From: Peptococcaceae bacterium
Lineage (GTDB): Bacteria; Bacillota; Desulfitobacteriia; Desulfitobacteriales; Syntrophobotulaceae
Assembly: GCA_012520405.1 (NCBI GenBank)
Contig: JAAYOJ010000131.1
Location: 1 to 32,570, forward strand
DNA length: 32,570 nt
Direction: 5' to 3'
Shown here: piece after piece, positions 1 to 29,058 of the stretch
How positions within the stretch are numbered: position 1 is the first letter of the stretch
How the letters are laid out: the number at the start of each line of letters is the position of its first letter
The notes under the pieces: model-generated
Database searches by the model: none
The model's input: the letters and a program-made list of their open reading frames with translations, nothing else
What the model was told of the DNA's origin: nothing
Translations under genes and position numbers: made by a program

Positions 1-2005
1 CTTCTTCATCAATGGGAAGTACAAAAATCTTTTTCTCCTGGAATTCTTCCCAGGACATATGCTCTTCTAAGCCGGTCGCTTTATAGAAGAAACGCACCCG
101 TTCTTTTTCACTTAATTTTCCGGTATAAACATCATAGTATTCAGGTCCCAGTTTCTCGGCCACTTTGGCACAAACATCAAAGTCGGACAGGGATTCACCC
201 CGCGGCTCAATACAGGGTTCTTCCAGGTAAATAGATTGGAAGACGCCGCTGCTGTAATCGTTGCCCAGATCGTTCATTTCGTGTTTGGTGAGAACGGGTA
301 AGATCAGATCGGCAAAGTAGCAATCGTTTTCCATCCAGGGGTGCTGAACAACAAAGGTCTCAATATCAGGGTGCCGGTAAGCATCAATAAAGAGATTGCC
401 ATCATTCCAACAGGTAACGTTGCAAGGTGCCGAAGACCAAATCATATGCACCCGGCTTAAACCCGGACGGGGGTAGACCATTTTTTCAAATTGGTATTTA
501 TTGGTGGGGAGACGGTAGTTGTTCTCTTTGGGTACCTGGCTGGTGCTGAAGCAATGCATACCATACCATTCGGCATGGCCTTCCGTAATAGCTTTATGCA
601 CCAAACAGCGCGGAATAAACTGCTTGGGTGCGGGCAATTGCTTGAAGAGTTCTATCAGTTCCGGAGCACGCTCTTCCTGCTCAGGAGTCAGACAGAAGCG
701 TTTCATGTTAAGCTCTTCGGGGAGATCGCCGTCTACAGGACGGAGCGGGTCGGCGCAATGGGGCATAGGTGGTAAAAATTTAGGAGTAAAGGGCACCGGA
801 TAAGTTTTGGCCCACATGTTCCACTCAATCATTTTAGCCTGATGCACCCCGGGTTTACCTAAGCCCTGCATCCCGAGCAGCATAATTTCCAGGCGAGCCG
901 GCTCAGAAGAATAGGGTCCGCGAATAAAGGAACCACCGTTACCGTGCAATATACTTACAATTTTTTTAGCCCAGTGGCGAGCCAGCGCTTTGATGGTCCA
1001 TTCGGCTACACCACATTTTTCACTGGCCCAGGCCGGAGTTTTGGGAATTCCGTCCTCTTTGCCCAGAACATAGTCCACAAACTTATCAAAACCGTAGGCA
1101 TGCTTGGCAATATATTCTTTGTCATAAGTTTCATTGGTAATCCACTGGTAAGCTATGGCCAGCTGCAAAGCAGCATCGGTATTGGGAAGTATGGGAATCC
1201 ACTTGTCGGCATGAATGGCCGCGCCGTAGTTTAGGTCCGGGCAAATATAGATAGATTTAATCCCAAGTTCCGTGAACCAATAGCAAAGAAGAGTAGGCAG
1301 ATGGCCGCCAAAGCCAAGGGGGGTTACCTCGGGGTCACAGCCCCAGAATAATAAGCTTTCAGAATGTTTGGCGATATCAGGGATGAGGTTAGTCCGCGGA
1401 GCCTGCTGACCAACAGGTTCGCAGCCCCAAACGTGTTTGGCGCCCCAGTACCAGCCTTCCCAGCTATCCATATTACGCATTTGCAGCGTATAGCCGCCCA
1501 TTAGGGAGAGTAGACGGTTGGGACAGCCATGGCTGGGAGCGACATGTTTACCTTCTCCATGCATGTCCGACTGGCAGAGAACCGCTTCCGGTCCATAGGT
1601 TTCTTTAATACGTTTCAATTCATCAGCGCAGATCTGAGCCGCTTCATCCCAGGAAATGCGGACATAACCTGATTTGCCGCGGTTTTGCGGATTGCGCTCA
1701 CCTTTGGGGTCCCAGTCTACACGCTTCAGGGGATAAAGCACTCTGTTTGGGGAATAAACCCGGGTTTTGTAAGCCAGACCAAAGTGAGTTAAGTTTATTC
1801 TTTGCGGGGGTTTAAAGGTCTTACCGCGAGCTTCGATTTTCCAGGGATTGCAATGAGCATCGGTATGCTCCGTATCATAGTCGTAAGGCTTGATCCGGGT
1901 CATCTTGCCATCGTTGATGTCTACAACACAAAGTGCGCCGCTTTCAGGTCCCATTAGACTGAAGCTTACGAGGCTTTGAGAGTCAGGTTTGAATTTGTTA
2001 TTCAA
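1..2005 (-). CDS. Transhydroxylase-like molybdopterin oxidoreductase large subunit (3' end missing)
   Basis: About 668 residues are visible; the C-terminal part lies beyond the window edge. The protein belongs to the DMSO-reductase superfamily and looks most like the large subunit of Pelobacter pyrogallol hydroxytransferase, a Mo enzyme that moves hydroxyl groups between polyhydroxybenzenes. Shared stretches recalled from that enzyme include KIEARGKTF (residues 56-64) and DSWEGW (180-185). In the Pelobacter enzyme the Ser of this motif binds Mo and the neighbouring Asp and Trp line the active site; here they would be D180, S181 and W182, with H149 aligning to the catalytic His. There is no N-terminal cysteine cluster for an iron-sulfur centre, as in the Pelobacter alpha subunit. 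The start is TTG at 2005, with GGAGGAGG about 8 bases upstream. An in-frame ATG at 2053 would add 16 residues but has only a weak site. The expected iron-sulfur beta subunit is not in the window. Catechol dehydroxylase-like or other activity is possible. Confidence 0.8.
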   Translation of the reverse strand, partial: MNNKFKPDSQSLVSFSLMGPESGALCVVDINDGKMTRIKPYDYDTEHTDAHCNPWKIEARGKTFKPPQRINLTHFGLAYKTRVYSPNRVLYPLKRVDWDPKGERNPQNRGKSGYVRISWDEAAQICADELKRIKETYGPEAVLCQSDMHGEGKHVAPSHGCPNRLLSLMGGYTLQMRNMDSWEGWYWGAKHVWGCEPVGQQAPRTNLIPDIAKHSESLLFWGCDPEVTPLGFGGHLPTLLCYWFTELGIKSIYICPDLNYGAAIHADKWIPILPNTDAALQLAIAYQWITNETYDKEYIAKHAYGFDKFVDYVLGKEDGIPKTPAWASEKCGVAEWTIKALARHWAKKIVSILHGNGGSFIRGPYSSEPARLEIMLLGMQGLGKPGVHQAKMIEWNMWAKTYPVPFTPKFLPPMPHCADPLRPVDGDLPEELNMKRFCLTPEQEERAPELIELFKQLPAPKQFIPRCLVHKAITEGHAEWYGMHCFSTSQVPKENNYRLPTNKYQFEKMVYPRPGLSRVHMIWSSAPCNVTCWNDGNLFIDAYRHPDIETFVVQHPWMENDCYFADLILPVLTKHEMNDLGNDYSSGVFQSIYLEEPCIEPRGESLSDFDVCAKVAEKLGPEYYDVYTGKLSEKERVRFFYKATGLEEHMSWEEFQEKKIFVLPIDEE

Positions 2006-2053
2006 TGTTTCTACCTCCTCCTTAAACGAATTGCGGAAAAATTCTGAATTCAT

Positions 2054-2187
2054 CTTCTTGGCCACAGTGGCGGAAGTCAGTCCTAGTTAAAGTATAATTC
2101 AAATTGGCAAAAAAGAGAAACAAAAAGTACCTTAAATTACAACTTTTGGTTACCAATTTTTCATATAAAATATTTTAAAGCCGGATA
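2054..2187. other. AT-rich intergenic region upstream of the molybdoenzyme
   Basis: The gene-free stretch 2006-2309 is about 300 bases. Its right part holds the rpsT terminator. Its left part should carry the promoter of the molybdoenzyme, but I see no convincing pair of -35 and -10 boxes on the minus strand. The one notable element is a short palindrome, TTGG-TTA-CCAA at 2146-2156, which could be a regulator site; this is a guess from symmetry and position only. Confidence 0.35.
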
Positions 2188-2230
2188 AAAAAAGATGCCT
2201 TCATATCATCACAACTTTGGAAGACATCTT
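2185..2230 (-). terminator. Intrinsic terminator of rpsT
   Basis: Read on the minus strand, an 11-bp stem (arms 2220-2230 and 2192-2202, one G-U pair) closes a 17-base loop and runs straight into a tract of U residues (complement of the A run at 2187-2193). It sits about 80 bases past the rpsT stop codon, so it should end the rpsT transcript and insulate the molybdoenzyme gene from it. Confidence 0.8.
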
Positions 2231-2309
2231 CTTCAATATTTGCTCTAGAGCCAATAATAAGTAATTAACTTTAATTGGAAATTTATTAATATTTAGCTGG
2301 TTTGTAATA

Positions 2310-27711: not shown

Positions 27712-29058
27712 ATGCAACAAGCCCAATTATTTCAAAATATGCGCAAGATGGGATTGGATTTTTTAACGGATATTCCTTGGGGCACCCATATCTGTGGCTT
27801 TTATCAAACAAAGAGAGATTTGACCAATATTATGGTCCGTTATTTTAGGGCAGGCCTGGAACAGAACGAATACTGTTTATGGGTAGTATCCGAACCTATT
27901 TCTGTTTACGAGGCGGAGCAAGAGCTCGGGAAATGTATTGATTATTTCGATTTTTATCGCCGCAATGGTCAAATTGAGATTCTAAGCTATGTTGATTGGT
28001 ATTTAAAGTATGGGGATTTCAATAGCAATTTAGTTTTGCGAGCCTGGGTGGATAAGGTTCAATGGGCCTTAGATAAAGGATATGAGGGAATAAGAATCTC
28101 AGGAAATACCAGTTGGTTACAGAAAAAATATTTTAAAGCCTTTATGGACTATGAAGCAGAAATAGAAAAGATGATCGGCAATTTTAAGATGATTGTTTTA
28201 TGTACATACCAGTTGGATAAATGCGGTATTCATGAAGTTATAGATATAGTTAACAACCATCAATTTTCTTTCATCAAAAGTGAATATAGCCCGGAAAGCT
28301 TTAATGGTGTATGTAAGTATGACCGTATCAAGCTTGTGGGTAAGATGGCGGCCTGTATTGCTCATGAAATAAGAAATCCTATGACTACTGTTCGAGGATT
28401 TTTGCAGTTAATGCAATTAAAGGAAGAGTTGCATCCCTTTGATTCATATTTTTCCATAATGATAGATGAGCTGGATCGGGCCAATGATATTCTTACCGAA
28501 TATCTGTCTTTGGTCCAGGACAAAGGCGGATCGTGGCAAAAAGAAAACATTAACCGCATACTTGAAAAGCTTCTGCCTTTGATTGAAGCTAAAGCTTTGG
28601 AGTCAGATAAGAAAGTAATACTCCATACGGGCGAAATCTTGGATCTTTACATAGATCCTAAAGAATTCCGCCAGCTGGTTCTTAATCTTTCCCAAAACGG
28701 AATAGAAGCTATGAAACCGGGAGGACTATTAACAATTAGCACCTATATTGATGAGGATAGCGTGGTCTTGGAAGTTAGGGATGAGGGTGAAGGCATTAAA
28801 CAGGAAGATTACGATAAGATTGGCAATCCCTTTTATACAACCAAAGAACACGGGACAGGTTTAGGCTTAGCAGTTTGTTATACTATTGCCTCAAGGCATA
28901 AGGCCACCATCGGCTTTGAATCAGGGCCGCAGGGCACGACCTTTAAGGTATGCTTTAGAATAGGAGCGATTCCGGAAGGTCTCAAACAGATGGGCACTGA
29001 TCGTAAACTACAGAAAGCAGATTTGACATATTTTCAGCATCCGAATATAATAAATTGA
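27712..29058 (+). CDS. MEDS-domain sensor histidine kinase
   Basis: The N-terminal part (about residues 18-185) looks like a MEDS sensory domain, first named from methanogens and methylotrophs and from the dichloromethane regulator DcmR; GTHICGFYQTKRDL is the typical entry. Then come a HisKA domain with the phosphoacceptor H218 in AHEIRNP and a HATPase domain with NLSQNGIEAM, DEGEGI and GTGLGLAV. The H-box is close to those of the Bacillus sporulation kinases, which feed Spo0A, so a role in starting sporulation is possible but inferred. There are no membrane segments and no response regulator gene next to it. AGGAGGT lies 9 bases before the ATG. In the 190-base AT-rich gap before it, TTGTTT (27570) with TATAAA (27592) at 16 bases is a weak promoter candidate. 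Confidence 0.87.
   Translation: MQQAQLFQNMRKMGLDFLTDIPWGTHICGFYQTKRDLTNIMVRYFRAGLEQNEYCLWVVSEPISVYEAEQELGKCIDYFDFYRRNGQIEILSYVDWYLKYGDFNSNLVLRAWVDKVQWALDKGYEGIRISGNTSWLQKKYFKAFMDYEAEIEKMIGNFKMIVLCTYQLDKCGIHEVIDIVNNHQFSFIKSEYSPESFNGVCKYDRIKLVGKMAACIAHEIRNPMTTVRGFLQLMQLKEELHPFDSYFSIMIDELDRANDILTEYLSLVQDKGGSWQKENINRILEKLLPLIEAKALESDKKVILHTGEILDLYIDPKEFRQLVLNLSQNGIEAMKPGGLLTISTYIDEDSVVLEVRDEGEGIKQEDYDKIGNPFYTTKEHGTGLGLAVCYTIASRHKATIGFESGPQGTTFKVCFRIGAIPEGLKQMGTDRKLQKADLTYFQHPNIIN
29023..29051 (+). promoter_or_regulatory. Consensus sigma-A promoter of glyQS
   Basis: A perfect TTGACA (29023-29028), a 17-base spacer and a perfect TATAAT (29046-29051) lie within the last codons of the histidine kinase gene. 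Transcription would begin near 29058, just before the T-box leader. Confidence 0.93.

Follow-up and report, generated by a model that had tools for sequence, protein, structure and literature searches.

The closest described relative of the gene studied here encodes the large subunit of the pyrogallol-phloroglucinol transhydroxylase of Pelobacter acidigallici (AthL/BthL, PgtLS; 4v4c), an enzyme that needs a tetrahydroxybenzene co-substrate; Tyr404, Asp174 and His144 are taken here to be its catalytic residues, and the structure paper of 2004 is said to have shown Tyr404 to be catalytic. PgtL and the resorcinol hydroxylase large subunit (RhL) have been grouped as one Ser-ligated family (PMC10100899), and catechol dehydroxylases cluster apart from pyrogallol hydroxytransferase (PMC7028382). 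For Chloroflexi RBG-2/RBG-1351 and DEH-C11, "pyrogallol hydroxytransferases" have been published as annotation only (PMC3971608, PMC4959651). In genomes from sediment and gut, members of this gene family are labelled pyrogallol transhydroxylase, and such labels have served to predict polyphenol pathways. The gene described below is moderately likely to encode the catalytic subunit of a polyphenol hydroxylase or dehydroxylase, a cytoplasmic Mo-bis-PGD enzyme of two subunits, from the sister clade (clade II) of this transhydroxylase.

The window analysed here is the entire contig C34 (32570 bp), one of 225 that make up a 2.5 Mb genome (G000). An open frame of 688 codons (2-2065, minus strand) is cut by the contig end at base 2, and the CDS of the clade II transhydroxylase-like alpha (molybdopterin) subunit within it (2..2005, minus strand) begins at a TTG and holds 668 of about 905 codons; the C-terminal ~240 residues are missing past the contig end. 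A strong Shine-Dalgarno sequence (AAGGAGGAGG, 2014..2023, minus strand, position counted from the sequence) lies 8 nt ahead of the TTG at 2005, and the N-termini of orthologues (MSNKFKPES in the same-genus genome G002 and LSKDFKPEK in L031) match this start. Position 2005, given as the right-hand boundary in the first-pass annotation, is therefore very likely the true start. The upstream gap as far as rpsT (2006..2309, minus strand) contains no LysR-type regulator; such a gene lies divergently between the alpha gene and rpsT in G002 and is also absent from the same-genus genome G001. The neighbours of the gene in its own genome are housekeeping genes (rpsT, spoIIP) with no catabolic genes, the remaining window genes, where examined, were ordinary housekeeping and sporulation genes, and no Rfam families were found across the window. 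Between recO and glyS lies a gene (27712-29058, plus strand) for a histidine kinase that carries a MEDS domain (methanogen/methylotroph DcmR sensory).

At least five contigs of G000 (C34, C176, C178, C208 and C217) end within genes of this family, the sort of break to be expected where near copies mislead an assembler. Joining of the cut gene to C208, which carries a clade II alpha C-terminus and a beta gene, was rejected, as exact end overlaps of at least 15 bases with C208 were sought in C34, C176, C178 and C217 and none was found; a search for a second genomic place for window bases 1-120 also found none. Since no contig could be joined, the C-terminus was read from congeners. Intact orthologues were found in G001 (926 aa, 97% identity; its contig also ends right after the gene) and in G002 (906 aa, 92% identity), and among 61 relatives only the three genomes of the genus gave matches above 90%.

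In a phmmer search against the PDB, the best match of the window protein was 4v4c_A, the large subunit of the Pelobacter pyrogallol hydroxytransferase (E 2e-109, 370 bits), followed at lower scores by DMSO reductase (160 bits) and acetylene hydratase (44 bits). Pfam detected PF00384 and the AhtL-like first domain PF21423 (43.8 bits, cut-off 27). A fold model (pLDDT 87.9) was made from a full-length orthologue of 80% identity (L031), and its best Foldseek match was again 4v4c (E 2e-76, TM 0.82-0.84), with a Z score of 38.5 and an rmsd of 2.4 over 816 residues; DMSO reductases reached Z scores of about 34-35 and acetylene hydratase 23. The first-pass annotation had called the protein pyrogallol transhydroxylase-like, citing a DSWEGW motif with a Mo-binding Ser and flanking Asp and Trp, an aligned His and missing N-terminal iron-sulfur cysteines, and each of these details was borne out: DSWEGW (1451-1468, minus strand) aligns through its Mo-ligand Ser and flanking residues with Pelobacter D174, S175 and W176, the His of DMHGEGK (1547..1567, minus strand) aligns with His144, and the N-terminal Fe4S4 domain PF04879 was absent from the Pfam search. 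The kinship to the Pelobacter transhydroxylase together with these motif matches is, judged from sequence, far beyond chance. The AhtL-like first domain, the transhydroxylase fold and the lack of an N-terminal Fe4S4 domain are the broad marks of PgtL/RhL-type Ser-coordinating MopB proteins.

A tree rooted on TorA, with relatives taken from named genomes and plasmids, divided the family into two deep clades, clade I (support 99/98) and clade II (100/100), with a long 100/100 branch parting the whole family from TorA; the best plasmid matches fell in clade I or TorA. Clade I holds the Pelobacter transhydroxylase and two proteins of G000, P0006 and P0005, and clade II holds the window protein and its three close paralogues (58-63% identity), beside which further fragments occur in G000. 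A constraint that placed the window protein in clade I cost 101 log-likelihood units and was rejected (p-AU 6.4e-5), and a larger tree also placed it outside clade I. In the alignment, clade I proteins have an HH motif, Tyr152 and an FPGYAE-type loop with Tyr404; in clade II, the window protein included, Tyr404, Tyr152 and His145 are replaced by a gap or another residue. The signature D-x-H-[GSA]-E-x-K, to which DMHGEGK of the window protein belongs, stands in clade II in place of the clade I residues, together with an invariant Trp in a W-N-D-G stretch and mostly G-V-H-Q at the position of Pelobacter G-S-N-M. As DSWEGW is common to both clades, the motif alone is no mark of a transhydroxylase. 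Thus, the earlier assignment stood as to fold and motifs and failed as to identity: in the tree that had been proposed as its check, the protein lies outside the transhydroxylase branch, and the gene is probably not a pyrogallol-phloroglucinol transhydroxylase.

An iron-sulfur beta subunit, for which the first-pass annotation had advised a search, is cut off in the window. In G002 its gene follows the 92% orthologue immediately, and the product (272 aa) has a full four-cluster cysteine pattern and a C-terminal carboxypeptidase-regulatory-like domain; a beta gene adjoins alpha in most other orthologue loci too. Among 56 clade II beta subunits, 37 had 15-17 of the common cysteines (four-cluster type) and 19 had 11-13, as in Pelobacter, and in clade I each of the 12 betas examined had the three-cluster pattern or fewer cysteines. 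The number of clusters was rejected as a clean clade marker, clade II being mixed, and because the four-cluster type is not universal in clade II, the redox argument drawn from it is weak and cluster number is suggestive only.

A clade I alpha lay in the flanks at 9 of the 32 loci whose orthologue of the window gene is 68-80% identical; assuming three copies per 2.5 Mb, 0.33 such loci were expected. The simple Poisson P is about 1e-10 and treats related loci as independent, but the excess is large. Neighbours of the phloroglucinol type, namely SDR, cyclase, thiolase, BKACE or HADH, were found at L037, L052, L067, L049 and L060, and also at L079, where the clade II member is more distantly related. 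In the last, a Spirochaetes MAG, a xanthine-dehydrogenase-type pair, a clade II alpha-beta pair, HADH, SDR and BKACE stand together (L079:2965-14024). In two Desulfobacteraceae loci (L103, L108), a clade I alpha-beta pair is followed directly by a clade II alpha-beta pair. Within G000, genes for SDR, cyclase, BKACE, HADH-like and cupin proteins lie in a row on C186; these are the enzyme families of the proven phloroglucinol cluster of Clostridium scatologenes (PMC10470551), and the SDR is a candidate phloroglucinol reductase at most. No UbiD-type gallate decarboxylase was found in G000, so that of the pathway genes suggested earlier for a search, this one was missing.

On C11 of G000, two more distant alpha subunits each have their own beta (P0006 with P0009, P0005 with P0008), forming two complete clade I alpha-beta pairs in tandem near LysR and sigma-54-type regulators (L027:7141-15089). 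P0006 matched the Pelobacter enzyme at 1068 bits and is by sequence the best candidate in G000 for a true pyrogallol transhydroxylase; P0005-type genes recur as neighbours of window-gene orthologues. Taken together, the orthologue neighbours, the C11 pairs and the C186 cluster give good support at the genome level to the anaerobic polyphenol breakdown proposed in the first-pass annotation. Several clade I alphas (L027:11264-14278, L103, L108, L134 and L135) carry an N-terminal extension of about 140 residues that the Pelobacter enzyme lacks; it has no Pfam match and by eye is possibly an SCP2-like domain. A family of 136-157 aa proteins without Pfam match adjoins P0005-type clade I genes in six loci (L027:5973-6431; also L058, L060, L042, L054 and L039). 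Directly upstream of the 80% orthologue, a glycyl radical enzyme scoring below all NCBIfam cut-offs and its likely activase are encoded (L031:3384-6823). On contig C1 of another genome, G021, clade II alpha-beta-alpha sets (L154, L155) lie by URO-D-type methyltransferases, a corrinoid protein and a CobW GTPase, which suggests a link of these sets to O-demethylation of methoxylated aromatics; the link was not pressed for G000, where only one stand-alone corrinoid protein was found.

Most carriers of clade II were MAGs, from Firmicutes of guts and digesters, from acetogens and from similar anaerobes; Gordonibacter (L083, L084) carries it too. The Chloroflexi members in the tree were largely clade II, with several in one RBG genome (L077). 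Four or more clade II copies were counted in G000, and 11 family matches in G021. LepA of the window shared 86-87% identity with its counterparts in two MAGs of Peptococcaceae (L078, L089) and 63-65% with those in the MAGs of L031, L060 and L034; in the first two the clade II proteins found were only 50-52% identical to the window protein, and in the other three its orthologues were 77-80% identical. Because the two sets of identities run in opposite ways, horizontal transfer of the window gene between this genus and Oscillospiraceae-like bacteria is the simplest reading.

For the substrate class, the direction of the reaction and the flow of electrons, we infer the following scheme. Oxygen would be traded between a Ser-ligated Mo and a hydroxyl on the ring of a polyhydroxybenzene, acid/base roles may fall to the conserved His and Asp together with the Glu particular to this clade, and the Fe-S beta, of the four-cluster type in this genus, would move two electrons in or out. 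Such oxygen exchange at Mo, coupled to an electron-carrying beta, would make net hydroxylation or, somewhat likelier, reductive dehydroxylation the probable outcome; the lean to dehydroxylation is weak and is drawn by analogy, because the paralogue expansion resembles the substrate-range expansion of dehydroxylases. In this way phenols of the gallate, pyrogallol or demethylated-lignin type would be made ready for the transhydroxylase of clade I and for breakdown through phloroglucinol. A literature search found no biochemical study or assay of any clade II member. We regard it as an even question whether clade II as a whole is a functionally separate, undescribed group of Mo-dependent phenol hydroxylases or dehydroxylases of the cytoplasm, found in at least six bacterial phyla and with many paralogues in some Firmicutes, whose members act beside transhydroxylase and the pathway through phloroglucinol and are prone to annotation as pyrogallol hydroxytransferase.

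Other functions were weighed against this polyphenol hydroxylase or dehydroxylase. A true transhydroxylase for another hydroxybenzene pair, transferring hydroxyls redox-neutrally in a rebuilt active site, is doubtful: the Pelobacter enzyme is nearest in both fold and sequence, His144, Asp174, Ser175 and Trp176 are kept, and some clade II betas share the three-cluster pattern with that of Pelobacter, but the protein lies in a separate clade lacking Tyr404, Tyr152 and His145, and a redox-neutral reaction would not need the four-cluster beta of this genus. The electron-carrying beta would suit an enzyme of the RhL type, in which a phenol is hydroxylated with water and the electrons leave through beta, and such an enzyme could supply the tetrahydroxybenzene used by the transhydroxylase. 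RhL is placed with PgtL in one Ser-ligated family (PMC10100899). We nevertheless hold an RhL-type enzyme to be unlikely, as clade II hosts are mostly anaerobes, in which the electrons of an oxidative hydroxylation would have to find a sink.

An S- or N-oxide reductase of the DMSO/TMAO reductase group, whose members are the second-best neighbours in structure and sequence, is very improbable in view of the NCBIfam models, all far below their cut-offs (bisC 204 vs 1017 bits), the AhtL-type first domain, the long 100/100 branch between the family and TorA, and the aromatic-pathway neighbours. Membership of the catechol dehydroxylase lineage of Coriobacteriia and acetylene hydratase is still less probable: acetylene hydratase scored 44 bits against 370 for transhydroxylase, the N-terminal Fe4S4 domain is lacking, and the enzymes of that lineage cluster apart from pyrogallol hydroxytransferase (PMC7028382), despite a similar pattern of many paralogues per genome and the presence of clade II in Gordonibacter. 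A dehydroxylase function may have been reached independently of that lineage.

If the chemistry of clade II differs from that of clade I, polyphenol pathway predictions built on such genes need revising, and an as yet unassigned class of enzymes adding or removing hydroxyls on plant phenols without O2 becomes directly testable; loci with clade I beside clade II genes are natural test pairs. Given the split between the clades, the Chloroflexi annotations may name the wrong reaction; an RBG genome of this phylum has clade II sequences. The window protein resembles AthL in fold, AhtL-like first domain, lack of an N-terminal Fe-S cluster, DSWEGW with its Ser ligand, His144 and Asp174, and its orthologues share with AthL/BthL an Fe-S beta with a C-terminal extra domain, encoded beside alpha. 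It differs from AthL in its identity of about 37%, its separate 100/100 clade, the absence of Tyr404, Tyr152 and His145 and the presence of D-x-H-[GSA]-E-x-K, and the beta of this genus has a four-cluster cysteine pattern where that of Pelobacter has three. P0005 and P0006 belong to the same broad family and genome, but they are clade I proteins with Tyr404, Tyr152 and the HH motif. RhLS of Azoarcus anaerobius is likened to the window protein by description, as a Ser-coordinating MopB enzyme acting on phenols and grouped with PgtL (PMC10100899). The broad family is already known, and clade II is best seen as a variant within it.
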